From: Paludibaculum fermentans
Lineage (GTDB): Bacteria; Acidobacteriota; Terriglobia; Bryobacterales; Bryobacteraceae
DNA length: 64,000 bases
Direction: 5' to 3'
NCBI RefSeq assembly: GCF_015277775.1
Contig: NZ_CP063849.1
Span: 4,278,001-4,342,000, forward strand
Positions 13,626-51,192 of this stretch are shown here, in pieces. The number at the start of each line of letters is the position of its first letter. The first letter of the stretch is position 1. Both the position numbers and the translations under genes were made by a program. The notes beneath the pieces are model-generated. The model ran no database searches. It was not told where the DNA came from and worked only from the letters and a program-made list of their open reading frames with translations.

Positions 13626-13752
13626 GGCGGCGCAAACGCCCGGTTTACCGTTAACCGCGCGAATGATAACTCATGTTTACTCTTTTCCTGGAGAAGCGGC
13701 GGGGTAGCATCGGTGTTGAAAACGGGAAGTTGAACAAAGGGGAGTGGATCAA

Positions 13753-16700
13753 ATGAAGCTTCGGAGAATAACAGCACTGACACTTGCCGGGCTCTTGTTG
13801 TTTGGGGGCGTCGGTTTCGCGCAATCCGCCCAAGGCTCAATCACCGTGGCGGTGACGGACCCGCAAGGCTCCGCTGTGCCCGGCGCAAAGGTGATCGTGA
13901 CCGGCGCTGATACCAACGTGGCGCGCACCGGAACCACCGGTCCCGAGGGGCTGTTCACGTTCGCGAATCTCGAACCGGGGAACTACCTAGTCGGCATCAC
14001 AGTGCCCGGCTTCACGGACCTGAAGAGCAGGGTCATCGTGCTTACGGCGGCGCAAAGCGCCCGGTTCGACGCCCGGCTTCAGATCGGCGGCTCCAGTCAA
14101 AGCGTCGAGGTGACCGCCACTCCCCCGGCGATGAACACGGAGAACGCGGCCATCTCGTCGGTCCAGACAGGCGAGCAGATTCTTGCCGCCCCCACCATGC
14201 GCGCGGTCATGCAGATGGCGGGCTTGACGCCCTCTACCGTTTTCGATGGCAGCGGCCTGATGATCGGCGGGAACCGCAACAACTTCCTGAACCTCACCAT
14301 CGACGGCATCCAGACCATGCAGAACGCCTACGGCGGTCAGTCGGGCCCTCTCACCAATGATCAGTCCTATGAATCCATCGCGGAAGTGGTGGTGATGGAG
14401 AGCAACAACTCAGCCGAATTCCCCGGTGTCGCCACGATGATGACGACCACAAAAAGCGGCGGGAACCGGTTGCATGGAAGCGGCTTCTATACCACTGACA
14501 ACAGCGCCTTGAACGCGGGACCGCTGAATCAGGGATCCAACCGGTCGCAAGGGATCATCGGACCCCTACTTCAATGGTGGGGCGGAAGCGTGGGCGGGCC
14601 GGTGGAACTGCCCAAAATATACCGTGGCCGCCAGAAGACCTTTTTCTTCTTCACCGAGGAACACCGGACGTTCCCTCTCGCCGCCGGCAACGCGAGCACC
14701 GGCACCACCACGGTTCCCACACAGGCATTTGTCGCCGGCGATTTCTCAGCACTGCTCGACCCGATCAACGGTGCGATTCAACTCAAGAATCCGCTCACCG
14801 GCACACCGATTCCAGGAAACAAACTCGGCAATGCCGGCCTCCAGATCAACCCGGTTTCCAAGGCCTTTACCCAGTTCTATCCAGCTCCGAACTACTCCGG
14901 CACCTCCAGCAATCCCAATAGCTACCTGAACAACTACCGCAACACCGTTTTCGGCCCCGAGCACATAGACCGCTTCGATATCAAGATCGATCACCACATC
15001 GGCGACAAGGACGTGTTGTCCGGACGCATCACCCGCCAGACCGACCCATGGCAGCGAAGCTACAACGCACCTGTCCCCGGCTATGGATTCCTCCAGGTTC
15101 GCAACAGCACCAACGACTATTTCTCCGAGACCCATATCTTCACGCCGGTGCTCGTGAACGAGTTCCGCCTGGGCTTTGGGCGCGACGCCTCATTTCGCAC
15201 TCCGCAACAGGACGGCAATACCTTCCTGAAAGCCATTGGCCTCAATCTCGGAACCACCGTCCCCGCCGGAACTCCCGGTTTGCCGGACATGGAGATCAAC
15301 AACTTCTTCGACCTTTACCCCAACCCGATCGCAACCAACATCAGCCAACAGTACGAACTGCTCGACAACCTGAGTTTCCACTGGGGGAAGCACTCGTTCA
15401 AGACCGGCGTCCTAGTTCGCTATGGCAACCCGGTCCTCAACACCCAGAACAACCAGTTCGGACAATTCAACTTCAACGGTCAATACACAGGTTTCGGCTT
15501 AGCCGACTTCATGTTGGGATACCCGTCGCAGGTTCGGCTCAAAGGACCCGCGCTGCCCCGCTACAATCGAAAAACTGACACGGGCGTCTATCTCAACGAC
15601 ACCTGGAACGTTACGCCCAAACTGACCCTAACGCTGGGCCTGCGTTGGGAGTACTTCATGCCGTCGGTGGATAACAACGACAGGCGGGTCAACTGGAACC
15701 CCGCCACCCAGGCCGTCGTTGTGCCGTCGAAGGAGGCGTTGCCCTATATGAGCGTCCCGCTGGATATCCCCGTTGAGATCTCTCCGTCCGGATTCCCGGG
15801 ACGTTCTCTTATGTACGGAAACTGGAAGAATTTCGGCCCGCGCGTCGGCCTGGCCTACCGGCTGAACAGCCGAACCGTCTTCCGGGGCGGCTATGGCGTC
15901 TATTATGGCGCACTGATCGCATCCTATCAGGACAACTTCGGCCCTGGAAGCCAGGACGTCTTCTCCTCAAAATCCCTGAGGCTCTTTAACACCACTCCAA
16001 CACCGACCCTCCAGTTCCCAAATCCGTTTGCCAACTCCCAGGCATCGAACGGCGTGTGCGCCGCGGAAGCCGACTGCGGAGACAGCATCACCGCCACCGA
16101 TCCGCACTTGAAAACGCCCATGATTCAGCAGTGGAACCTGACCTTCGAGCGCGACCTCGGACATTCGATGGTCGCCCGAGCCACCTATCGCGGCTCCATG
16201 TCGACGCAGCTGCCGGTCTTCTACAATCTGAACCTTCCCAAGGCCGGCACTTCCGACCTCACGAACGTCTATTTGTATTCACGCTGGACCGGCGGGAATA
16301 TCAACTACGAGACCGACGGTGCCATCCAGAAGAGCAACTCCCTCGATTTGGCGCTCGTTCGAAATTTCGCGCAAGGCCTGCAGTTCCAGGCGGCCTACAC
16401 TTACTCGAAGAATATGACCGACCAGAACATCAGCAACGGTGAGGTCGGGACGCCGAGCAACCCTTACGACCGCCATTACGACTGGGGCAACAATACTCTC
16501 GTGCCACGGCAGCGCTTCGTCCCAAACGTGGTGTGGACGCTTCCCACGGGTCGCGGCCAAGCCCTACTTTCCAGTGCGTCCAAGACAGTGGACGCTGTTG
16601 TCGGCGGCTGGGAGCTTTCCAGTGCGATCGTGATCCAGAGCGGCCAGTACTTCTCCCCCATCTACCAAGGCACGTCCTGGCTGCAGAATCGCAACGGCGG

Positions 16701-17103
16701 CGCCACCCGTCCGGATTGCACCGGCGCCAAGCCATACACCGGCAATTCCCACTGGGCCTGGGACAATAACGCCGTATATCTGAACACCGCCGCGTTTTCG
16801 GTGCCCGCAGCCGGACTCTATGGCAATTGTGCTGCGAATTCCCTTGTGGGTCCCGGAGCCTGGACCGTCAACTTTGGCGTGCACAAGAGCTTCCACTTAG
16901 GGGAGAAAGTCAGCCTGAAGCTGCAGGGTAACTTCATGAACCTGTTCAACCACGCCAACCCCGGCCTTCCGAACAACGACCTTAGTTCGGGCGGGATGGG
17001 GCAAATCACCGGCACCACGAGCGGGAACCAGTTGCTCAATCCCACGGTCACCAATAACAATGGCGAGCGTCACATCTGGCTGGGCGCGCGGTTTCAATTC
17101 TAG
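13753..17103 (+). CDS. TonB-dependent receptor, Oar-like, with N-terminal carboxypeptidase-regulatory-like domain
   Basis: Outer-membrane protein of 1116 residues. ATG 13753 is preferred over the GTG three codons upstream because AAAGGGGAG sits 8 bases before it. A signal peptide ends near FAQS (residue 23). Residues about 26-115 are a CarboxypepD_reg-like beta-sandwich (GSITVAVTDPQGSAVPGAKV). A plug-like region follows, then a long beta-barrel with aromatic strands such as GVYLNDTWNVTPKLTLTLGL. The C-terminus is GARFQF, the terminal phenylalanine typical of BAM substrates. Such receptors are abundant in Acidobacteria and are thought to import large glycans or peptides. The ligand is unknown. 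It follows the broken hybrid gene and is probably transcribed alone. Confidence 0.93.
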   Translation: MKLRRITALTLAGLLLFGGVGFAQSAQGSITVAVTDPQGSAVPGAKVIVTGADTNVARTGTTGPEGLFTFANLEPGNYLVGITVPGFTDLKSRVIVLTAAQSARFDARLQIGGSSQSVEVTATPPAMNTENAAISSVQTGEQILAAPTMRAVMQMAGLTPSTVFDGSGLMIGGNRNNFLNLTIDGIQTMQNAYGGQSGPLTNDQSYESIAEVVVMESNNSAEFPGVATMMTTTKSGGNRLHGSGFYTTDNSALNAGPLNQGSNRSQGIIGPLLQWWGGSVGGPVELPKIYRGRQKTFFFFTEEHRTFPLAAGNASTGTTTVPTQAFVAGDFSALLDPINGAIQLKNPLTGTPIPGNKLGNAGLQINPVSKAFTQFYPAPNYSGTSSNPNSYLNNYRNTVFGPEHIDRFDIKIDHHIGDKDVLSGRITRQTDPWQRSYNAPVPGYGFLQVRNSTNDYFSETHIFTPVLVNEFRLGFGRDASFRTPQQDGNTFLKAIGLNLGTTVPAGTPGLPDMEINNFFDLYPNPIATNISQQYELLDNLSFHWGKHSFKTGVLVRYGNPVLNTQNNQFGQFNFNGQYTGFGLADFMLGYPSQVRLKGPALPRYNRKTDTGVYLNDTWNVTPKLTLTLGLRWEYFMPSVDNNDRRVNWNPATQAVVVPSKEALPYMSVPLDIPVEISPSGFPGRSLMYGNWKNFGPRVGLAYRLNSRTVFRGGYGVYYGALIASYQDNFGPGSQDVFSSKSLRLFNTTPTPTLQFPNPFANSQASNGVCAAEADCGDSITATDPHLKTPMIQQWNLTFERDLGHSMVARATYRGSMSTQLPVFYNLNLPKAGTSDLTNVYLYSRWTGGNINYETDGAIQKSNSLDLALVRNFAQGLQFQAAYTYSKNMTDQNISNGEVGTPSNPYDRHYDWGNNTLVPRQRFVPNVVWTLPTGRGQALLSSASKTVDAVVGGWELSSAIVIQSGQYFSPIYQGTSWLQNRNGGATRPDCTGAKPYTGNSHWAWDNNAVYLNTAAFSVPAAGLYGNCAANSLVGPGAWTVNFGVHKSFHLGEKVSLKLQGNFMNLFNHANPGLPNNDLSSGGMGQITGTTSGNQLLNPTVTNNNGERHIWLGARFQF

Positions 17104-18051: not shown

Positions 18052-18128
<77 letters not shown>

Positions 18129-19165: not shown

Positions 19166-19325
19166 GGTTCGGACCTCCAAAGTGGGCGGTAGGCGGAAGG
19201 AGTCCTGTTTCAGCTCACAGGGCACGCTATCACCACCGGCCCGTCGATAGCAAGGCCAATCCATTGCGAGATTCCGGCAACGCGAATTGATTCATAATAC
19301 GTCTCAGATTGCGGTGATTTCGTTT

Positions 19326-21008
19326 ATGCCCAACCAGTTTGCCATCTGCCTCTTCGTTTTGACTTGCGCGGCCGGAGCGCAACAAGTGCAAGGACCCAAG
19401 CAGCAGAACCAGAAGCCGGCCAGTGTGGAAGGCGTGGTGGTGAATGATCTGACCAGGGAGCCGATACGGCGGGCCGAGGTCCTGCTCAGCCTGATGAAGC
19501 CGGGCACCCAGATGGGCCCAAACCAGCCTTCCTCCGCCGTGACGGATGCGGAGGGCCGATTCCGGGTGACCGAACTGGAAGCCGGGCAGTATGTCGTTTA
19601 CCTTCGCCGGCAAGGGTTCGTCATGGCCGGTAACGCGTCGGCAGGCTCGGCCATCCGGCTGCAGTTGACCGCTGGCCAGGAGCTAAAAGGCCTCCGATAC
19701 ACCCTGACGCCACAAGCCGTGATTGCCGGGCGGGTGTTCGACGACGAGGGTGAACCGGCGCAGGGTGCCCAGGTGACGGTGTTGCGGCCGCGCAGGATTC
19801 GCGGGAAGAACACATGGCTGCCAGACGGCCAGAACGTTCGAACGAACGACAAAGGCGAGTTCCGGGTAGCCAATATCCAGGCGGGCCGGTATGTGGTGAT
19901 GGCGCAGGCCTGGATGCAGGTGGCGGTGGAGGCCGGCACTGCTCAGCGGCCCGCCACGAGCTATGTAGCCACGTTCTATCCCGGAGTGACGGAAGCGACC
20001 CAGGCCACGATGGTGGAGGCGACGCCCGGCGCGGAGCTCACGGGGTTCGACATCACGCTGAAACGCGTGCCCGTCTTCAAGGTCCGGGGCAAGGTTCTGA
20101 CGGCGGAAGGTCAGCCGGCGAAGAACTTCCATGCGTCGATGGGTTCACGGGAAGGCGGAGTCTTCGGGGTGGCCGGGCGTATGACCCAGGGCAAGGAGGA
20201 TGGCAGCTTCGAGATGACGGGTGTACCCAACGGCGCATGGGTACTGATCGTCAACAGCGGCCGGGGCGGGCCTCCTGGCGGTCCAGGGGATCAACAAACC
20301 ACGACGGTCCCCGTGGAAGTTGCCAATCAGGATATCGAAGGTCTGGAGGTGCGCTTCACTCCGCCGTTTACGCTGCAGGGGAACGTCGTGGTGGAGGCCG
20401 CGACGGACGAGCAGAAAGCGGTGCTTTCCGGCTTCAATGTCTCCCTTCAACCAGAAGCGAATACCTTCGTGATGGGCGGGCAACCGGCGCGCACGCAGGC
20501 GGACGGCTCGTTCTCGTTGCGGGTGGGTTCCCCGGGCAAGTACATCCTCAACGCGTACAATCCTTCGGCCACCGGGCTGTACCTGGCCGCGGTGCGCTTC
20601 GGGAACGAGAATCACTTATTCAGGCCGGTGGACCTGAGCGGCGGCTCCGCCGGACCGGTGAAGATCGTCTTCCGCGGCGACGGAGGGAAGGTCTCCGGCA
20701 ACCTGGACCTGCCCGAGGAAAAGAAGAGCCATGGCGAGGGGATGGCGGTGCTGATCCCCGTGGATCCGGAATTGCGGAGTTCGACGATGGGGCGGAACGT
20801 GCGGATGGTGGACCAGAACGGCGGCTTCCAGTTCGACTCGGTCCGGCCGGGCGAATACTACTTGGCCGTCACTACGACTTCCGATTACAGCGCGGTGCAG
20901 GATATCGACCAGGCAAAGGACTTTGACAGCAAGGCGACCAAAGTCAAAGTAGTGGCGGGCGGCAGCACCAGTGTACAGGTGAAGCCGCTTGAACCAGCGG
21001 ACAAGTAA
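19326..21008 (+). CDS. Secreted protein with repeated carboxypeptidase-regulatory-like domains (1 of 3)
   Basis: A 560-residue exported protein starting at ATG 19326 with signal MPNQFAICLFVLTCAAGAQQ. An in-frame TTG at 19287 has no signal at its head. Beta-sandwich modules recur: VEGVVVNDLTREPIRRAEV, then VIAGRVFDDEGEPAQGAQV, VRGKVLTAEGQPAKNFH and a C-terminal one ending in DFDSKATKVKVVAGG. The modules resemble CarboxypepD_reg/SdrD-B-like folds and no catalytic motif is seen. It is first of three related genes in tight succession, which suggests one surface or periplasmic complex or successive duplications. Binding role inferred only. Confidence 0.8.
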   Translation: MPNQFAICLFVLTCAAGAQQVQGPKQQNQKPASVEGVVVNDLTREPIRRAEVLLSLMKPGTQMGPNQPSSAVTDAEGRFRVTELEAGQYVVYLRRQGFVMAGNASAGSAIRLQLTAGQELKGLRYTLTPQAVIAGRVFDDEGEPAQGAQVTVLRPRRIRGKNTWLPDGQNVRTNDKGEFRVANIQAGRYVVMAQAWMQVAVEAGTAQRPATSYVATFYPGVTEATQATMVEATPGAELTGFDITLKRVPVFKVRGKVLTAEGQPAKNFHASMGSREGGVFGVAGRMTQGKEDGSFEMTGVPNGAWVLIVNSGRGGPPGGPGDQQTTTVPVEVANQDIEGLEVRFTPPFTLQGNVVVEAATDEQKAVLSGFNVSLQPEANTFVMGGQPARTQADGSFSLRVGSPGKYILNAYNPSATGLYLAAVRFGNENHLFRPVDLSGGSAGPVKIVFRGDGGKVSGNLDLPEEKKSHGEGMAVLIPVDPELRSSTMGRNVRMVDQNGGFQFDSVRPGEYYLAVTTTSDYSAVQDIDQAKDFDSKATKVKVVAGGSTSVQVKPLEPADK

Positions 21009-21020
21009 GTGGCCCTGGCA

Positions 21021-22646
21021 ATGAGAACAGCATGGCTCGCGGCGCTGGTGTTGGGCGGACTGTGCCTGTGGGCCCAGAGCGATCCGGCCGAGCAGGTGTG
21101 CACGGTGGAAGGAACGGTCGTCGATGCGCGTACGCAGGCGGGGATCCCGGGTGTGCGGGTGACCGCCATGATGACTTTGGAGGGGAGAGACAATCTGCGC
21201 TCCTCGGGGATGGGCGCGTTCACGGATAGCAACGGGAAGTTCCGGCTGACAAAGGTGAAGCCAGGCCAGTACTTCCTGTCAGCGGCGAAGGCGGATTTCG
21301 AGCCCACTCGCCGGCGCCCGGTATTGCTTCCGGCGCTGGAGGCAGGAAGGGAGCTGAAGGGCGTGCGGGTCGAACTCCAACCCCTGGCCACACTCAGCGG
21401 ACGGGTGGTGAACGAGAACGGCGATCCGGTCTCCGGCGCGACCGTGGAGCTGATGGCCCGAGTCTCCGCATTCAACCGGAAATCGATCTCCTCCACAGGG
21501 GGCGCGGCCAGCACCGACGACCGGGGCATTTTCCTGATCCACCGTGCTTCGCCCGGCCATTACCTGTTGTCCGCCACCCATATGGAATCGCGCAATGTGA
21601 TCTACCCGTTGCGCGGGGGCGGGGTGAGCGGCTATGTGAGGACCTTTCTTCCAGGGGTCTCTGATCCGGAGCAGGCACGATGGCTGGAAGTGACGCCCGG
21701 ATCGGAGCAGAACGGTCTGGAGATTCAACTTCGGCGGGAGCCCGTGTACCGGGTCAGGGGGCTCGCGCTGGATGAAAGCGGCGCACCGGTGCCGCGTTTC
21801 GTGGTCAATGTGCAGTCCGGCCTGGGTATCGCTCCGCTGCAAAACAGGACCTTCATGAATGGCCAGTTCGAGATCGAGGGTCTGCGTCCAGGCCAGTATT
21901 CGCTGATGGCCCGCTCGGTCACGATGGGCGACAGCGGGCAGAGCGCCCGAGTTGCCCTGAACCTGGGGCAGGGCGACGTCGACAATCTGCAGATCCGGCT
22001 CTCGCCTGGAATGCGGCTGCAGTGTACCGCGATCCTGGAAGGTGCGGGAGAGCGGAAGCCGGATTGGCAGCGGGTGGAAGTGGTGCCGATGTTCCTGGCG
22101 CCTCTGGGGCCGGCCGCCGACCAACGGGTCAAGCCCGCCGCGGACGGCTCCTTCGTCCTGGAAATTGCCGGCTCTGGTTCCATGTGGTTCAAGGTGACGG
22201 GCCAGCCCGCCGCCGGCACTTACCTGGCTGAGATCCGCAGCGGCCCGGAGAACCTGCTGGATCGCGAGGTGGATGCATCCTCCGGGCTGCAAAGCCCGAT
22301 GCGATTCGTCTTTCGCACCGGCAGCGCGAGGCTCAGCGGCCAGGTGGAGGATGCCAACGGCCGGCCCGCCTCGGCGGGCGCGAGCGTACTGGCCTTCGAC
22401 GCGGATGCAGCCAAGCGGAGCTTGGGCTCGGCCATCAGCGCGAGTGTCAAGGCGGACGGCTCCTTCGAGTTGGCGGAGTTGCCGCCATCGGATTATCTGG
22501 TCTACGCAACGATGGAAGAGGAACTGCGCCCCTTTGGAGTGACACAGGCTCCGGAAGATCTGGAACAGCGCGCTACTAAGGTTCGCCTGCCGGCGGGTGG
22601 AACGCAGGCGGTCCGGCTGAAGTTAACCGAGGAAAAGACGAAGTGA
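21021..22646 (+). CDS. Secreted protein with repeated carboxypeptidase-regulatory-like domains (2 of 3)
   Basis: A 541-residue paralogue of the preceding protein. The start is ATG 21021, giving the signal MRTAWLAALVLGGLCLWAQ. A GTG at 21009 immediately after the upstream stop is the alternative. Modules include TVEGTVVDARTQAGIPGVRV, LSGRVVNENGDPVSGATV, VRGLALDESGAPVPRFV and LSGQVEDANGRPASAGA. The recurring closing motif ATKVRLPAGGTQAVRLKL parallels the end of gene 1. No enzyme motif or membrane anchor is visible. It overlaps gene 3 by GTGA, so the three are very likely one operon. Confidence 0.8.
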   Translation: MRTAWLAALVLGGLCLWAQSDPAEQVCTVEGTVVDARTQAGIPGVRVTAMMTLEGRDNLRSSGMGAFTDSNGKFRLTKVKPGQYFLSAAKADFEPTRRRPVLLPALEAGRELKGVRVELQPLATLSGRVVNENGDPVSGATVELMARVSAFNRKSISSTGGAASTDDRGIFLIHRASPGHYLLSATHMESRNVIYPLRGGGVSGYVRTFLPGVSDPEQARWLEVTPGSEQNGLEIQLRREPVYRVRGLALDESGAPVPRFVVNVQSGLGIAPLQNRTFMNGQFEIEGLRPGQYSLMARSVTMGDSGQSARVALNLGQGDVDNLQIRLSPGMRLQCTAILEGAGERKPDWQRVEVVPMFLAPLGPAADQRVKPAADGSFVLEIAGSGSMWFKVTGQPAAGTYLAEIRSGPENLLDREVDASSGLQSPMRFVFRTGSARLSGQVEDANGRPASAGASVLAFDADAAKRSLGSAISASVKADGSFELAELPPSDYLVYATMEEELRPFGVTQAPEDLEQRATKVRLPAGGTQAVRLKLTEEKTK

Positions 22647-24250
22647 AGTTGTTCTGGCTCGTGATCATCTCCTGCGGTTGGGCGGCCGGCCAGTACGGAT
22701 CCTGCACTGCCTCGGGCGTAGTGGTGCAGGAGGGATCCGGGGAGGGTGTTCCCCGGGCCAGGTTGTTGTTCACTCCGTCCACGCGTCCCGGCAGTATCAC
22801 TCTCGGCTACTTCTCCGACGACCAGGGCCGCTTCGAGGCCTTCGGCCTGGACCCCACCAGCTATTCAGTTAGTGTGCAGAAGTCGGGGTTTGTTGAGACG
22901 GCCCGTGACACCGCCGGCGGAGGCGGTGACCTGGTGCGGCTGGGCGGCCGCTGTGACGCCAAGGGATTGCAGTACGTGATAGCGCCGGCGGCGGTGATTT
23001 CGGGCAGCATCGTGGATCGCAACGGAGTATCGCAGGGCATCACAGCGGTAGACGCCCTGCGCCGCGGCTGGCTGAACGGCCGCTGGCAGTTCCGCAAAGT
23101 AGCCAGTGCGTTTTCGGACGGACAGGGGCGATACAGGATCGCGCGGCTGCCGCTGGGTACTTATGTTCTGCGAGTTCACCCATCGGCTCCAGTGACGGTG
23201 AAGTACGGCGAGGGAAGCGGCTTCACGCAGGTGTCGGCTCCGGCGTACTATCCGGGCGTCTACGAATCCTCGAAGGCGCAACTGATCCAGGTGAGAGTGC
23301 CGGGCGAGATGGGCGGATACGACTTTGGCCCACTGATGACCCAGTTGCTGCGCGTGGAAGGCCGAGTGACTGGCGTGGAAGGGCGGATGGTGCCACAGCA
23401 GTGCCGGGTCACGCTGCGGCCATCCGATCTGACCGACACCCGGGAGTACCAGGCCGACTGCCAGCCGGAGAGCGGTAACTTCGCCTTCGCCGAGATTCCG
23501 CCCGGCAACTATCGCGTCACTGCGTATGCGGCCGATGCCGAGCAGGTCACCAGCGCAGTATGCGAAGTGGAGCTGCAAAGCAGCGACGTCACAGGACTCA
23601 CACTTGCGATGGAACCGCCGTCGACGGTGAAAGGCCGCGCCACCGTGAGTGGAGGTGTCGCCCCACCCAACGGCACATGGCTTAAATTGAAGCCCGTCAG
23701 TGCGGCACCCGCCGTCGACGACGCCAGCCCGATCAGCACCGCCGGCCAACTGGAGTTCAGCATGGTGCTGCACGACCGCTACCGCCTGTCAGCGGGCAGC
23801 AACCAGCCGAATCTCTACCTGCAATCCGTCCAGGCCGACGGCAAGCCCGTCGAGGGCACGCTGCTGGATTGGACCGCACATCCTCCTGACCTGCTGGAAG
23901 TGGTTCTGGGACAGGATGGGGGCAGTGTGGAGGGCACCGTTCGAGGAGCGTTCAGCCAGTCGGTGCGCGGCTACTATGTCGTCCTGGTGCCGGCGGACCT
24001 GTCCAAACTGGCGGGGTCGGAACTGCTGACGCAGCCTACCCAGGCGAACGGCGTGTTCCAAATCACGAATGTTCCACCGGGCGATTACTACGCCTATGCG
24101 TTTGCATTCCTGATGCGCGACCGTATCAATGATCCGGCGATGCTGTCGGATCCGCTGTGGGTGCCGGGCTACCGGGGCCAACCCGCCACGGTGCATGTGA
24201 CGCCGCGCGGCTCCACGAAGATCGACCTGCCACCGCAGCCACTCCCTTGA
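22643..24250 (+). CDS. Secreted protein with repeated carboxypeptidase-regulatory-like domains (3 of 3)
   Basis: A 535-residue exported protein beginning with GTG 22643 inside the previous stop (GTGA) and a short signal (KLFWLVIISCGWAAGQ). Modules include ASGVVVQEGSGEGVPRARL, AAVISGSIVDRNGVSQG, LRVEGRVTGVEGRMVPQ and VKGRATVSGGVAPPNG. Conserved elements such as YYPGVYESSKAQLIQVRVPG also occur in genes 1 and 2 (FYPGVTEATQATMVEATPG). The ending is proline-rich with no anchor. Function unknown. Confidence 0.8.
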   Translation: MKLFWLVIISCGWAAGQYGSCTASGVVVQEGSGEGVPRARLLFTPSTRPGSITLGYFSDDQGRFEAFGLDPTSYSVSVQKSGFVETARDTAGGGGDLVRLGGRCDAKGLQYVIAPAAVISGSIVDRNGVSQGITAVDALRRGWLNGRWQFRKVASAFSDGQGRYRIARLPLGTYVLRVHPSAPVTVKYGEGSGFTQVSAPAYYPGVYESSKAQLIQVRVPGEMGGYDFGPLMTQLLRVEGRVTGVEGRMVPQQCRVTLRPSDLTDTREYQADCQPESGNFAFAEIPPGNYRVTAYAADAEQVTSAVCEVELQSSDVTGLTLAMEPPSTVKGRATVSGGVAPPNGTWLKLKPVSAAPAVDDASPISTAGQLEFSMVLHDRYRLSAGSNQPNLYLQSVQADGKPVEGTLLDWTAHPPDLLEVVLGQDGGSVEGTVRGAFSQSVRGYYVVLVPADLSKLAGSELLTQPTQANGVFQITNVPPGDYYAYAFAFLMRDRINDPAMLSDPLWVPGYRGQPATVHVTPRGSTKIDLPPQPLP

Positions 24251-27136: not shown

Positions 27137-29642
27137 CCATGCGCAGATAGCGGCTGGGCATCTGCTGGCGGCCCCACCCGCCGATCACAGGGAAACTGAA
27201 ATACAGCCGGCGCTTGGCCCTGCTCACGGCGACGTAGAACAGACGATGCTCTTCGTCCTCCAGCCCCTCCTTCACGCTGCGGCGATTCGGGAACTCGCCA
27301 TCGGCGGCGCCGGCGATGAAGACGGTGTCGAACTCGAGCCCTTTGGCCTGATGCACTGTGAGCAGCAGGACCTTGTCTTCGTCAATGGCCTGACCATCGA
27401 TCTCCTTGCCCAGCGAGGCGACGCTGAGAACGTGAATCAGGGCATCCATGGGCTGCATGGACGGGTCGTCGAAGCGCTGGAACAGAGTGAGCAGTTCGTC
27501 CAGGTGCTCCCGGCGCGGAGCATCGGCAGGATCCCGTTCGTAGTGCTTGATGAGGCCGGATTCGTGGAGGATCCGCTCCAGCAGTTCGAACGGCCGTTCG
27601 GTCAACATGAACGTGCGCCACTGCTCCAGCCTGTCGGCCAGCGGCTTGAACCTGGCACCATACTGCTTCACTGCGCCGACACGAGCCATCGCCCCCGCCT
27701 CCAGTTGGGGCAGCAGGACCTGCAGGAGTTCCACGGTCGCTGCCACGTCCGCATCCGCCCGGTGGGTGGGAATGCTCTTCAAACCCAGCCGGCTGCAGAT
27801 CTCGCCCAACTTGTAGCGAGGCAACCGGTGGAAGCGGCGGGTGATGTCGAGAGTGTCGAAGACCTGCCTGGCTTCCCACGCCGGCAGGCCCAGGCGGGCG
27901 CAGACGCTGCGCACCATCGGCACATCGAACAAAGCCACGTTGTGTCCGGCCAGGACACAGCCTTCACAAAAAGCCTCGAACTCACGCAACACATGAGCCG
28001 GATCGCGGCCTTCCCGGGCGAGGAATTCGTCACTGAGGTGGTGGATCGGTTCGGAATCACCCACCGGCCGAGAGGGCTTGAGGTAAGCGTGGAACTGAGC
28101 CAAGACGGACGAACCGTCGCAGCGGGCGGCGGCGATCTCCACGATCTCATCATCACCGATGGAAAGGCCCGTGGTTTCGATATCAAAGACGACGACGCGC
28201 CCGGCGCGGGCCGCCTCCATCAAGGGACGGAACGGGTCGCCGGTTTCGAACGTGGAGGGCGTCAGCAGGTCGGCCGGCTTGAGTCCGGCCTGCCTGGGCG
28301 CGCCGGCCAAAGCCTCGATGGTGGCCTCGCCGATCCCTTTCGGCGGGGTCTTAAGGAAGCGCATCAGGCTATTGGCGTCGTGCGGATTCAGCAGCAACCG
28401 GAGGTGCGCCAGCGTTTCTTTAATCTCGGCCCGCTGGAAGAACTTGAACTGATCGACCTGAAGGTGCGGCAGCCCGAGCGCCGTGAAGTTCCGGGACAGC
28501 TCACGGGACGTGAAGTTGCTGCGTGTGAGCACCGCGATCTCACCGAGCTTGACGCCCTGCTGCTCGACCAGCGTCTCCACCTGATCGCGGATCCAGCGGG
28601 CCTCGTCTCGCGTGTCATCGGCTTCGTAAACGCGGAGCGGTTCACCCTCTTCGGCCTGTTGCGGCACAATGCTTTTGGTGAGGGCACCTGGGCAGGCGCG
28701 AATGAGGCGTTCGCAGGCTTCCAGGATGCGGCGGGTGGAGCGGTAGTTGCGGGTGAAGCGCATCTCGTGGACTGGGGCGAAGGCGGACTTGTACTCGGCC
28801 AGGATCTCGAGAGGAACGGAGCCGCGCCACTGATAGATGGTCTGGTCGATGTCCCCGAAGAGAGACAAACGGCGATGGCGCGCAGCCAGCAGCGAGAGCG
28901 GGCGATATTCGCCGCGATTGGTGTCCTGGATCTCGTCAACCTGGATCCACGAGAACTTGGCCTGCCAGCGTTCGAGGACCTCAGGATTCTCCTTAAAGAG
29001 GCGGTTGACGCCGGCAATCAGGTCAGCGAAGTCGACGGCATGGCATTCACGCAGGGCATGGACGTACTCCGCCAGCAGCGGTTTGAACATCAGGCCGCCG
29101 CGATACTGCAGAAATGACGCACGGCTGTCGCGCAGGCAGGCATCGAACACCTGCTGCGGCGTACGCGGGACGGCGTCATCGAACTCGCTGAGGCGGGCGC
29201 GGGCGGCCGCATCGAAGAGCAGAAACTCGAACGAGTCGCGCTCCTCGTCGGGCGGTTTGATATTGGCGCGGCGGGCCACTTCGCCGAGAATCGAGCGGCA
29301 ATCCTCTTCATCGTAGATGAGGAAGTCGCGATCCCAACCAACGGCCGGCGCCTCGACACGGAGAATCTGGGCGCAAAGTCCATGGAAGGTCTTGGCCGTG
29401 ACTTCCCCTCCCCGCCGGCCCAGGTGCCGGGCCAACCGGTCTTTGACCTCGCGCGCTGCTTTGTTGGTGAAAGAGAGGCAGAGGATGGAAGACGGCGCGA
29501 CACCCTGCTCCACGGCGTGGGCGGCGCGCAAAGCAAGGACATTGGTTTTGCCCGTGCCAACGGGGGCCATGACGAGCAAGGCCTCATTCCAGGCCTCGAC
29601 CGCCTCGCGTTGCTCGGGATTGAGCGTTTCCCAGGGAATCAT
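27117..29642 (-). CDS. UvrD/Rep-family DNA helicase with inserted DnaQ-like 3'-5' exonuclease domain
   Basis: An 841-residue SF1A helicase. Walker A is APVGTGKT (residues 26-33), Walker B WIQVDEIQDT, motif IV-like MRFTRNYRST and motifs V-VI LLLTVHQAKGLEFDTV and RLFYVAVSRAKRR. Residues about 485-650, in the 2B region, form a DEDDh exonuclease: FDIETTGLS (D487, E489), GHNVALFDVPM and HRADADVAA. The catalytic residues of both enzymes are present, so one chain could unwind and trim DNA. It starts at ATG 29642 with no Shine-Dalgarno, 15 bases after a selenocysteine tRNA gene. A repair role is inferred. Confidence 0.92.
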   Translation of the reverse strand: MIPWETLNPEQREAVEAWNEALLVMAPVGTGKTNVLALRAAHAVEQGVAPSSILCLSFTNKAAREVKDRLARHLGRRGGEVTAKTFHGLCAQILRVEAPAVGWDRDFLIYDEEDCRSILGEVARRANIKPPDEERDSFEFLLFDAAARARLSEFDDAVPRTPQQVFDACLRDSRASFLQYRGGLMFKPLLAEYVHALRECHAVDFADLIAGVNRLFKENPEVLERWQAKFSWIQVDEIQDTNRGEYRPLSLLAARHRRLSLFGDIDQTIYQWRGSVPLEILAEYKSAFAPVHEMRFTRNYRSTRRILEACERLIRACPGALTKSIVPQQAEEGEPLRVYEADDTRDEARWIRDQVETLVEQQGVKLGEIAVLTRSNFTSRELSRNFTALGLPHLQVDQFKFFQRAEIKETLAHLRLLLNPHDANSLMRFLKTPPKGIGEATIEALAGAPRQAGLKPADLLTPSTFETGDPFRPLMEAARAGRVVVFDIETTGLSIGDDEIVEIAAARCDGSSVLAQFHAYLKPSRPVGDSEPIHHLSDEFLAREGRDPAHVLREFEAFCEGCVLAGHNVALFDVPMVRSVCARLGLPAWEARQVFDTLDITRRFHRLPRYKLGEICSRLGLKSIPTHRADADVAATVELLQVLLPQLEAGAMARVGAVKQYGARFKPLADRLEQWRTFMLTERPFELLERILHESGLIKHYERDPADAPRREHLDELLTLFQRFDDPSMQPMDALIHVLSVASLGKEIDGQAIDEDKVLLLTVHQAKGLEFDTVFIAGAADGEFPNRRSVKEGLEDEEHRLFYVAVSRAKRRLYFSFPVIGGWGRQQMPSRYLRMVMPGRA

Positions 29643-29657
29643 GTGGGCCGCGGGAGA

Positions 29658-29752
29658 TGGCGGGAACCAGTCGGAGTCGAACCGACCAACGATCCAGAGA
29701 ACCGTTCAGCGGTTTTGAAGACCGTGCCTACCACCGGGCAAGATTGGCTCCC
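29658..29752 (-). tRNA. selC: Selenocysteine tRNA (anticodon TCA), CCA encoded
   Basis: 95 bases on the minus strand with all tRNA-Sec features. There is an 8-bp acceptor stem GGGAGCCA/TGGTTCCC, a T-arm GTCGG-TTCGACT-CCGAC, and anticodon TCA (29718-29716) in loop CTTCAAA. A long variable arm has about 8 bp (AACGGTTC/GGATCGTT with two G-U pairs). The discriminator is G73 and CCA is encoded. The length equals that of E. coli selC. Weak -10 TAAGAT lies at 29763-29758. It pairs functionally with selA at 49.9-51.2 kb. Readthrough from pckA upstream is possible. Confidence 0.95.
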
Positions 29753-29768
29753 ACTGCATCTTAGCAAG

Positions 29769-29810
29769 CCGGCGCCCCCCTGCTGCTGGGCAGAGCAGGT
29801 GGGGCGCCGG
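29769..29810 (-). terminator. Strong stem-loop after pckA (terminator-like, no U tract)
   Basis: The arms at 29769-29784 and 29794-29810 pair over 16 bp with one bulged base around a 9-base loop. It lies 8 bases downstream of the pckA stop and upstream of the tRNA-Sec gene. A U-run is missing, so it may be a Rho-assisted terminator or a processing/stability hairpin that lets some transcript continue into selC. Confidence 0.5.
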
Positions 29811-29817
29811 GCAGCGG

Positions 29818-31419
29818 CTAATCGACGATGGGGCCGGCGGCGGCAATATCTTCGCCCACGGAACCGAACTTGCTCGAGAAATTCTTATGGAAACGGGAGG
29901 CGAGATCCCTCGTCGCGGCGTCATAGGCGGCCTTGTCGGCCCACATGCCGCGGGCGTCAAGGACTTCGGTCGGCACCCCGGGACAGAATTCCGGTACCTG
30001 CACCTGGAAGACCGGATGGGCCTTCACCGGCACGTCGCCGAGTTCACCTTCGATTGCCGCATTCACCATGGCGCGTGTGTGGGCGAGTTTCATGCGATGC
30101 CCAACTCCGGCCGAACCGGCAACCCAACCCGTGTTGACCAGCCAGACGCGGGCCTTGTGCCGTTCCAGTTTCTCCCCGAGCATGCGGGCATATTCCAGCG
30201 GGCTGCGTGGCAGGAAGGGTTCACCAAAGCAGGAGCTGAAGGTCGCCTGCGGCTCTTTCCCGAGACCACGCTCCGTTCCGGCCAGGCGCGCAGTGTAGCC
30301 GCTGAGGAAGTGGTACATCGCCTGCTGCGGCGTCAGCTTCGAGATCGGGGGCAGCACGCCGAACGCATCGGCGGTCAGAAAGACCACATCGGAAGGATGT
30401 CCGCCGAGACCGGGTACCAAGGCATTGCTGATGTACTGGGCACGGTAAGCGGCGCGTGTGTTCTCTGTAAACTCTTCAGAATCATAGTTTAGGATCCGAG
30501 TCTCCGGATCAATAACGACGTTCTCCAACACACACCCAAAGCGGATGGCATCAAAGATCTGGGGTTCGGCTTCGCGTGACAACCGGATGCACTTGGCATA
30601 GCAGCCGCCCTCGAAGTTGAAGACGCCTGTGTCGGACCAGCCGTGCTCGTCATCGCCGATCAGCCGCCGCTCCTTGTCCGCCGAGAGGGTCGTTTTGCCG
30701 GTGCCCGAGAGACCGAAGAAGAGGGCCACCTTCTTGTGGGCTCCCACGTTGGCGGAGCAGTGCATCGGCAGAACATCCCGTTCCGGCAACAGATGGTTCA
30801 GGATTGTGAAGACCGACTTCTTCATCTCACCGGCATAGAACGTACCCAGAATCAGCACCATGCGGCGGGTGAAGTTGACGCAGATACAGGTTTCGGAGTT
30901 TGTTCCGTCGGTCTTCGGGTCGCAAGTGAACTCGGGTGCGAAGACGATGGTGAAGTCGGGGACATGGGCGGCGAGTTCGGCCAGGTCCGGCTTGATGAAT
31001 AACTGCCGGGCGAACATGGAGTGCCACGCCCGCTGGGTGACGACGCGAATCGGCATCGTGAAGTTGGAATCGGCTCCAGCCTTGAGGTCAGCGACGAACA
31101 CCTCGCGGCCGTCCAGGAATTGCTGGACCCGCGCCCAGATACCGTCAAACTGCCCAGGTGTGAGCGGCTGATTCACGCTGCCCCAGGCGACGGTGCTTTC
31201 GGTGTAGCTGTCCCGGACAATGAATTTGTCTTTCGGCGACCTGCCCGTGAACTGGCCGGTGCGAACGACAAGCGCTCCGTTGCCGGCGAGGACCCCTTCC
31301 TGCCGTTGAAGCGCCATCTCCGTGAGGCGCCCCGTTCCGAGATTCCACCACTGTGTGGTGGGTCTCAATCCAAGAGATTCAAGAGTATGATTGCTGGGAC
31401 AGACACCGGTAATGCTCAT
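29818..31419 (-). CDS. pckA: Phosphoenolpyruvate carboxykinase (ATP)
   Basis: Gluconeogenic enzyme converting oxaloacetate and ATP to PEP, CO2 and ADP in the cytosol. ATG 31419 is chosen because MSITG then leads directly into the conserved N-terminus. A GTG 11 codons upstream is the alternative. The 533 residues match the family length. Signatures: TGRSPKDKF, the kinase-1a P-loop GLSGTGKTTLSAD (about residues 235-247), metal-binding DDEHGWSD, FNFEGGCYAK and the C-terminal RMKLAHTRAM. An inverted repeat overlaps its upstream region and a stem-loop follows the stop. Confidence 0.96.
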   Translation of the reverse strand: MSITGVCPSNHTLESLGLRPTTQWWNLGTGRLTEMALQRQEGVLAGNGALVVRTGQFTGRSPKDKFIVRDSYTESTVAWGSVNQPLTPGQFDGIWARVQQFLDGREVFVADLKAGADSNFTMPIRVVTQRAWHSMFARQLFIKPDLAELAAHVPDFTIVFAPEFTCDPKTDGTNSETCICVNFTRRMVLILGTFYAGEMKKSVFTILNHLLPERDVLPMHCSANVGAHKKVALFFGLSGTGKTTLSADKERRLIGDDEHGWSDTGVFNFEGGCYAKCIRLSREAEPQIFDAIRFGCVLENVVIDPETRILNYDSEEFTENTRAAYRAQYISNALVPGLGGHPSDVVFLTADAFGVLPPISKLTPQQAMYHFLSGYTARLAGTERGLGKEPQATFSSCFGEPFLPRSPLEYARMLGEKLERHKARVWLVNTGWVAGSAGVGHRMKLAHTRAMVNAAIEGELGDVPVKAHPVFQVQVPEFCPGVPTEVLDARGMWADKAAYDAATRDLASRFHKNFSSKFGSVGEDIAAAGPIVD

Positions 31420-31445
31420 AAAGTATTCGATCCTGGAATGAAGAG

Positions 31446-31467
31446 GATCCACTATCTTCGGTGGATC
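31446..31467. promoter_or_regulatory. 7-bp inverted repeat between pckA and the divergent secreted-protein gene
   Basis: GATCCAC (31446-31452), an 8-base spacer and GTGGATC (31461-31467) form a perfect inverted repeat, 26 bases upstream of the pckA ATG and 40 bases before the divergent start at 31508. Spacing and symmetry suit a dimeric repressor or activator site, or an RNA hairpin in the pckA leader. Confidence 0.4.
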
Positions 31468-49865: not shown

Positions 49866-49889
49866 GAGGGTGCCCGTCGCGGCATCCTC
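49866..49889 (+). terminator. Stem-loop between efp and selA stops
   Basis: GAGGGTGCC (49866-49874), a 6-base loop and GGCATCCTC (49881-49889) pair over 9 bp with one G-U. Only a short T-run follows (CCTTTCT). The position between convergent stops supports a shared terminator. Confidence 0.5.
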
Positions 49890-51192
49890 ACCGGGCCTTT
49901 CTGATCGCCTCGGCCAGTTCTGCTTCTTCCTCCGGACGCACCGTCCGCAAATCCAGCAGCAATCGATCAGCTTCGATTCGCCCAATTACCGCCGGATCGC
50001 CCTCGCGCAACTGCCGCTCCAACACGGACGCATCGCCCTCCGGCGCAACCAGCCACGTGGGCAGCGCCTGCTCCGGAGTGGATCCTCCGCCCAGCAGCGA
50101 TTCGCCAGGGACAACCGTGGCGGCTTCGACCTCGGCCGCCAGCCTCTCGGCGCGTACTTTGATCTCATCCGCCGTCAGGCGGATCATGCGCATCACCGGC
50201 AGTGCGGCCCAATCCTGCAGCAGCGTGTGCCGCAACGCCGTCTCCATGGCTCCAATCACCAGCTTGTCCAATCGCAGCGCGCGGAACATTGGATTCCGCC
50301 GCAGCCGTTGGACCAGATCCTCACGGCCCGCCAGCACGCCCGCCTGCGGCCCGCCCAGCAGCTTGTCGCCGCTGAACGAGACCAGGTCAGCACCAGCGCG
50401 CAGGCTCGACTGGACCGTCGGCTCGTTCACACCAAAGGGCGAGAGATCAGTCAGGCTGCCGCTGCCGAGGTCCTCGTAAACAGGCACGCCGCTGGCCTTG
50501 CCCAGCGCCGCCAGCTCTTCGATGGACGCCCGGCCCGTGAAGCCCTGCATGCGGAAGTTGCTGGGATGGACTCGCATCAGCAAGCGCGTGCGATCCGTGA
50601 TGGCCCGTTCGTAGTCTTCAACCCGAGTGCGGTTCGTGGTCCCAACTTCCACCAGCACCGCGCCCGAGCGCGCCATGATATCGGGGATCCGGAAGCCGTC
50701 GCCGATCTCCACCAGTTCGCCGCGCGACACAATCACTTCGCCGCCGGAGGCAAGCTCGTGCAGCGCCAGGAACACGGCCGCCGCTCCATTGTTCACCAGA
50801 ATCCCGGGCACACCCAGCAGCCGATCCAGCAGACTCTCCGTGTGGCTATCGCGTTTGCCTCTCCGTCCCGTCCGCAGGTCGTACTCCAGGTTCGAATACC
50901 AGCCTGGAGACGCGGTCTCCGCCAGAGGGGCCCGGCCCAGGTTCGTGTGCAGCACGACCCCGGTCGCATTGATGACGCGCCGCAACGAAGTCAGGGAAAG
51001 CCCCCGCAGTCGATCCTGCAGCAGGGTAAGCGGATCGGGCAAGGTCTTCTCCCCAGCCCGGATCATCGCCCGCAAGTCCTCAAGCACGGCGCGGCACTCC
51101 TGCACCGCCAGCTCATGCGGGACACCGCCCCCGGCCTGCAAGACCAGCTCGTCGACCGAGGGCAGCAATCGGAACAGCTCCTGCATTCTCAC
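49888..51192 (-). CDS. selA: L-seryl-tRNA(Sec) selenium transferase (selenocysteine synthase)
   Basis: PLP-dependent enzyme that converts seryl-tRNA(Sec) to selenocysteyl-tRNA(Sec) using selenophosphate. The 434 residues match SelA: INATGVVLHTNLGRAPLA, YDLRTGRRGKRDSHTE, LVNNGAAAVFLAL, VGTTNRTRVEDYE and the PLP-lysine motif SGDKLLGGPQAG (K277). The partner tRNA is at 29658-29752. The start is GTG 51192, overlapping the deacetylase stop. ATG 51186 is the alternative. It is the third gene of an overlapping run. selB and selD are not in the window. Confidence 0.95.
   Translation of the reverse strand: MRMQELFRLLPSVDELVLQAGGGVPHELAVQECRAVLEDLRAMIRAGEKTLPDPLTLLQDRLRGLSLTSLRRVINATGVVLHTNLGRAPLAETASPGWYSNLEYDLRTGRRGKRDSHTESLLDRLLGVPGILVNNGAAAVFLALHELASGGEVIVSRGELVEIGDGFRIPDIMARSGAVLVEVGTTNRTRVEDYERAITDRTRLLMRVHPSNFRMQGFTGRASIEELAALGKASGVPVYEDLGSGSLTDLSPFGVNEPTVQSSLRAGADLVSFSGDKLLGGPQAGVLAGREDLVQRLRRNPMFRALRLDKLVIGAMETALRHTLLQDWAALPVMRMIRLTADEIKVRAERLAAEVEAATVVPGESLLGGGSTPEQALPTWLVAPEGDASVLERQLREGDPAVIGRIEADRLLLDLRTVRPEEEAELAEAIRKAR

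Follow-up and report, generated by a model that had tools for sequence, protein, structure and literature searches.

We conclude that selC, the tRNA-Sec gene of this acidobacterium, probably has its own promoter with a start at the first nucleotide of the tRNA (G1), and that in three species of the genus a helicase-exonuclease gene appears to borrow this tRNA unit. The three are the species of the window (the whole 64,000-nucleotide stretch of DNA analysed; genome G000) and those represented by genomes G002 and G006. We give this reading, which is drawn from comparison of sequences, a probability of about two in three. With slightly less confidence, we favor the broader view that tRNA-Sec is made leaderless from G1 throughout the family, bypassing RNase P though RNase P RNA is present, with the unit of one sub-lineage also supplying the promoter and the 5' end of a repair mRNA. 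Most other tRNA genes of the cell are predicted to have leaders. The linkage looks like a tRNA transcription unit borrowed by a gene that is elsewhere untied to selC, and not like regulation of repair by selenium. selC loci were gathered from the genus, family, order, and class, and the window features that bear on the argument are collected in Table 1.

Table 1. Features of the window discussed in the text.
Feature	Position	Strand	Details
UvrD-type helicase with inserted DEDD (RNase_T) exonuclease, 841 aa	27117..29642	-	Pfam PF00580, PF13361, PF00929
Spacer from tRNA CCA to helicase ATG, 15 nt	29643..29657	-	No Shine-Dalgarno; without terminator-like site
selC, tRNA-Sec(UCA)	29658..29752	-	95 nt, encoded CCA, 8-bp acceptor, long variable arm; ARAGORN; Rfam RF01852, 68.8 bits
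Predicted selC promoter, extended -10 TGCTAAGAT	29758..29766	-	Last T 6 nt before G1; predicted start G1 (29752)
Strong hairpin behind pckA, which may act as its terminator but has no T run	29768..29812	-	Fold -36.8 kcal/mol, z -3.23
pckA, ATP-dependent phosphoenolpyruvate carboxykinase	29818..31452	-	PF01293, 714.9 bits
SelA	49888..51192	-	TIGR00474, 490.5 bits; PF03841, 407.4 bits

The earlier note had recognized a tRNA-Sec from an 8-bp acceptor stem, a TCA anticodon, and a variable arm of about 8 bp, and had named a covariance model as the check. The identification holds. ARAGORN returns tRNA-SeC with anticodon TCA, and RF01852 accepts the gene over positions 29662-29752 with a score well above its gathering score (68.8 versus 47 bits), the result being the same for the full window and for the stretch alone. 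In the covariance alignment, GGGAGCCA pairs with TGGTTCCC to form an acceptor stem of 8 pairs, including one G-U, followed by an A-C mismatch. Read from the letters, AACGGTTC/GGATCGTT can give a variable arm of 8 pairs, two of them G-U; the Rfam model draws 5. The second-best RF01852 match genome-wide, at 47.4 bits, coincides with a tRNA-Ser. By sequence, selC is the sole tRNA-Sec gene of a selenocysteine-using acidobacterium.

The selenocysteine machinery agrees with this assignment. SelA is encoded in the window, SelB is present in the host genome outside it, and the SelD gene of G000 (L333, G000:C1:9301580-9302485) has an in-frame TGA within the sequence AGUASKLS. One in-frame TGA is found in SelD of all seven genomes searched, so SelD is itself a predicted selenoprotein, and it is the only one demonstrated in these data. 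For Sec formate dehydrogenase, no match exceeded the TIGR01553 cut-off in any of the seven genomes, and those listed are without in-frame TGA. Given SelA, SelB, and a SelD with in-frame TGA, the Sec system is very probably working; charging of the predicted tRNA-Sec with selenocysteine and its use at UGA are putative.

The promoter was found by aligning the 60 nt upstream of G1. Within the family, 72 selC matches scored at least 63 bits, and 70 loci had 60 nt upstream (L038, G088:C345 left out). The alignment holds one conserved block, T-G-n-T-A-n-n-n-T. TAnnnT ends 6 to 9 nt before G1 at 63 of the 70 loci, compared with 2.5 expected by shuffling, and the TGn extension is present at 44 of the 70. 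When each genus is represented by one locus, the -10 box TAnnnT occurs in 52 of 58 genera (36 with the TGnTAnnnT form), leaving six without the motif. In 49 of the 58, the distance from the last T to G1 is 7 or 8 nt, as is standard between a -10 box and a start. Position +1 is G at every one of the 70 family loci, and position -1 is a pyrimidine at 66, a preference that is also common at other tRNAs (32/46 in G000). Between genera, identity upstream of selC is 27% at -60..-21 versus 40% at -15..-7; TGCTAAGATGCAGT is identical in G000, G002, and G006 while the flanks differ. As a DNA prediction, the element places +1 at the first base of the tRNA. In the window species the spacing is 6 nt, one nucleotide closer than the usual 7 or 8, so the start could slip to G2. 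A primary transcript begun at G1 would already carry the mature 5' end, and no RNase P cut would be needed.

The same element could also be a true promoter that starts transcription a few nucleotides upstream of G1, giving a very short leader that is then removed by RNase P. RNase P RNA is present in the four genomes searched (G000, with 278.8 bits to RF00010, G006, G016, and G071), the best-scoring -10 ends 10 to 16 nt before G1 at 3 of the 70 loci, and in the 21 of 58 genera whose last T is 8 nt away a start at -1 is possible. Set against these points, the predominant spacing of 7 or 8 nt, the invariant G at +1, and the pyrimidine at -1 make the short leader improbable, and we prefer the start at G1. 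Presence of the RNase P RNA leaves normal processing open to other tRNAs; on the same result we rejected loss of RNase P as the cause of a leaderless selC.

Control tRNA genes rarely carry the element: TAnnnT occurs at 8 of 101 and the TGn form at none. By source, these are 6/46 in G000, 1/44 in six other acidobacterial genomes (the 44 coming from 30 loci of genomes with 24 to 73 tRNAs each), and 1/11 among tRNAs lying by chance in selC loci. Genus loci and control tRNAs were compared by a Fisher test that ignores phylogeny. Because 8 of the 101 controls have the motif without TGn, selC is perhaps not the only tRNA of its kind, and a few others may be leaderless too, such as the window tRNA-Met(CAT) (18052-18128, minus strand), where TACCAT ends 6 nt before the first base.

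Away from the family of the window, the selC -10 signal fades. The motif is present at 6 of 11 loci from order relatives and at 8 of 10 from other families of the class (both samples taken from longer match lists), at 14 of 69 selC loci of the phylum, and at none of 8 in Proteobacteria. The phylum sample comprised 70 loci of more that were listed, with selC called by ARAGORN in 69; one of its genomes, G401, belongs to the class, and a few of the ARAGORN tRNA starts are one base off. In Proteobacteria, the best hexamer falls in the -9..-6 zone at 2 of the 8 loci when scored with an E. coli -10 frequency matrix; the TAnnnT counts are independent of that matrix.

On the 3' side, the position described in the earlier note is borne out: selC lies between pckA and the helicase-exonuclease gene and ends 15 nt before the helicase ATG. 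The RNase_T exonuclease insert occupies residues 484-640 of the helicase; in NCBIfam, the 25 matches listed of 40 are each below the respective cut-off. From the last in-frame stop, which is inside the tRNA, to the ATG, the helicase frame reads through no ATG, GTG, or TTG. No terminator was found by a scan of the 15-nt gap. A co-oriented ORF so close behind selC, with no terminator between, fits the arrangement of a tRNA-mRNA dicistronic unit, and a cotranscript is predicted. The lack of a Shine-Dalgarno sequence before the helicase, to which the earlier note had pointed, is real, yet we rejected it as a special feature of this gene, since just 5 of 33 window ORFs have a Shine-Dalgarno core of at least 4 nt (ORF starts provisional). 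Elsewhere in the window, positions 19287-24250 hold a run of three related genes, of which two have demonstrated carboxypeptidase-regulatory-like domains; G006 and G001 have tandem counterparts.

Because pckA lies upstream of selC in the same orientation, read-through could yield selC transcripts that carry a leader. The distance from pckA to the tRNA is 65, 63, and 40 nt in G000, G002, and G006, respectively. The hairpin behind pckA in G000, of which no equivalent was seen by eye in G002 or G006, may limit such read-through. A strict promoter scan (TTGACA plus TATAAT) of positions 29500-30000 returned no site, the selC element included; as the scan is blind even to that element, an extended -10 promoter inside selC is possible.

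In each of the three linked species, a spacer of 15 nt separates selC from the helicase. Its identity to the window is 12/15 in G002 and 7/15 in G006, and just 56 to 57% of third codon positions are shared with the window over the first 1500 nt of the helicase gene. Cotranscription of selC and the helicase is likely in this lineage, given a gap that is free of terminators and keeps its length despite divergence of the helicase. We propose that RNA polymerase starts at G1 of selC from the extended -10 element, and that in G000, G002, and G006 the helicase-exonuclease gene has ended up 15 nt past the CCA, without an intervening terminator. RNA made from the selC promoter, together with any pckA read-through, would continue into the helicase; once the tRNA 3' end was matured, the helicase mRNA would start with a 5' leader of at most about 15 nt and be translated without a Shine-Dalgarno sequence. 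With no terminator-like site in the gap, the selC promoter would be the simplest source of the helicase mRNA.

The helicase link is narrow. The neighbor scan covered 98 loci, of which 91 held selC, one of them twice; neighboring genes were called with a custom, simple codon-usage caller, their starts being provisional, and the downstream reach was short in some loci (76 nt in L016 and about 320 in L070 and L098). The helicase is directly behind selC at 3 of the 91 selC loci, all in the genus, where they make up three of the eight selC-bearing genomes. G001, G004, G005, G007, and G008 keep the pckA-selC order with a different gene next, and in G005 the helicase starts about 4.8 kb beyond selC; G003 has no match of tRNA-Sec strength. 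In G007 and G008 (L104, L105), the helicase begins 19 nt behind tRNA-Ser(GGA), so that within one genus the same gene directly follows two different tRNAs. In the family, 29 of 237 genomes, from 7 of 76 genera, carry a helicase orthologue (E<=1e-150). Thirty helicase loci were counted, 29 of them showing the N-terminus; a tRNA lies within 20 nt upstream in 5 of the 29, all in this genus, and 24 are without one. A sixth tRNA-near case is a second G001 locus, with tRNA-Glu about 230 nt upstream. In helicase orthologues of another genus (L110, L111, L343-L347), a -10-like TAnnnT seems to stand within a few nucleotides of the likely start, judged by eye with starts uncertain, and these genes may have short-leader or leaderless mRNAs.

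Elsewhere in the family, the genes behind selC encode DnaJ-like proteins, IMP dehydrogenase, an SbcD-like metallophosphoesterase, phage integrase, and others, a variety indicating that the partner of selC is not repair specific. At L036 (G089, another genus), from position 1609 onward, pckA and selC are followed at 12 nt by the SbcD-like gene, and the selC -10 motif is absent from its usual place. At L038 (G088) and L076 (G070), the 3' end of selC is 10 nt away from a phage-integrase-family gene on the other strand, an arrangement suggesting use of selC as an integration site in the family. tRNA genes serve as integration sites in general.

These distributions bear on whether selection has joined selC and the helicase into a regulatory unit through which a DNA-repair enzyme would respond to selenium status or to tRNA-Sec maturation. 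The exact 15-nt spacing in three species with diverged spacers, the gap without a terminator-like site, and the SbcD-like gene behind selC in G089 would fit such a unit. The adjacency is missing, however, from five of the eight selC-bearing genus genomes, tRNA-Ser takes the place of selC before the helicase in two of these, and the other identified genes behind selC are mostly unrelated to repair; we regard a regulatory unit as very unlikely. A conserved selC-repair operon was likewise rejected, the adjacency being confined to so few selC loci and the helicase mostly lacking a nearby tRNA. The coupling of selC to DNA repair put forward in the earlier note thus survives as probable cotranscription in the linked lineage and falls as a conserved trait. 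We see the selC-repair link as a minor feature of one lineage.

It is possible, if on balance unlikely, that rearrangement brought the two genes together by chance, with the helicase on a weak internal or upstream promoter and no functional consequence. The genes that follow selC differ widely in their order, and integrase genes stand directly behind it in G070 and G088, in keeping with tRNA genes as integration sites. Chance is less easily reconciled with a gap and promoter element that stay constant over large synonymous divergence, or with a single genus in which the helicase stands behind two different tRNA genes, at gaps of 15 and 19 nt. We continue to favor borrowing of the tRNA unit. 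The data do not support the idea that the linkage arose by simple inversion between selC and tRNA-Ser(GGA): no trace of the selC neighbor of G007 was noticed behind tRNA-Ser in G000; the region just behind that tRNA-Ser resembles the outer-membrane gene at window positions 13744-17103 (29% identity).

Such closely spaced pairs are rare at the other tRNA genes of G000, where 1 of 31 tested has a coding-like co-oriented ORF starting within 40 nt. This is tRNA-Arg(CCT) (L167, around G000:C1:6027809-6027882), with the ORF 18 nt on; the ORF begins with a motif resembling that of DnaE, the DNA polymerase III alpha subunit. Among all collected loci, most of which do not span dnaE, L167 is the only one with a DnaE-like start behind a tRNA.

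Protein genes released by tRNA processing are a familiar arrangement: the E. coli tRNA-tufB locus is a tRNA-mRNA dicistronic operon in which the protein gene stands behind the tRNA. The unit in the window differs in its 15-nt spacer, the missing Shine-Dalgarno sequence, and tRNA-Sec as the lead gene. The adjacency matters less than the start at G1; it shows a neighbor that would use a tRNA unit as its mRNA leader. A closer precedent is found in the portion of Mukai 2021 (PMC8124441) considered here, which describes alphaproteobacterial selC genes that lie within selB and other ORFs or directly against them, in one case ending at -2 of a selA start, and proposes that tRNA processing creates a leader-less downstream mRNA. 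As in those cases, the tRNA-Sec gene of the window is directly next to a downstream ORF, and that proposal gives the processing idea for the helicase mRNA a precedent in a different arrangement. Unlike the nested examples in that portion, selC of the window overlaps no ORF, lying 65 nt from the pckA stop and 15 nt from the ATG; it is paired with a helicase-exonuclease gene and is preceded by a promoter element of its own, from which transcription is predicted to start at G1. According to an excerpt of PMC3848588, cuts a few nucleotides downstream of CCA-encoding tRNAs are made in another bacterium, the kind of 3' cut that we assume for the selC-helicase transcript.

At the 5' end, the E. coli gene for the same tRNA species is differently built. 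Its TATAAT ends 32 nt before G1, from which a leader of about 25 nt would be expected. In eukaryotes, tRNA[Ser]Sec is transcribed from an external promoter, starts at nucleotide 1, and keeps its 5' triphosphate. The tRNA species is again the same, and the G1 start predicted in the family of the window would, if true, be a bacterial parallel; polymerase and promoter differ, so the likeness would be convergent. The leaderless model predicts a triphosphate on a bacterial tRNA. A search of the open-access PMC literature, judged from listings, abstracts, and excerpts, turned up no report of a leaderless bacterial tRNA-Sec. Nanoarchaeum equitans has leaderless tRNAs and lacks RNase P activity, as stated in the part of PMC10941002 that we draw on. 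The predicted start placement here likewise gives a tRNA without a 5' leader; in contrast to Nanoarchaeum, RNase P RNA is present in G000, and the arrangement is characteristic of selC rather than of most tRNAs. Acceptor stems of 7 bp are the usual product of RNase P cleavage, with tRNA-Sec and tRNA-His as exceptions with 8, in the account given in an extract of PMC11143913. A start at G1 may spare the cell RNase P trouble with the 8-bp acceptor stem, and a clade that starts at G1 would represent one answer to how this unusual 8-bp tRNA gains its 5' end.
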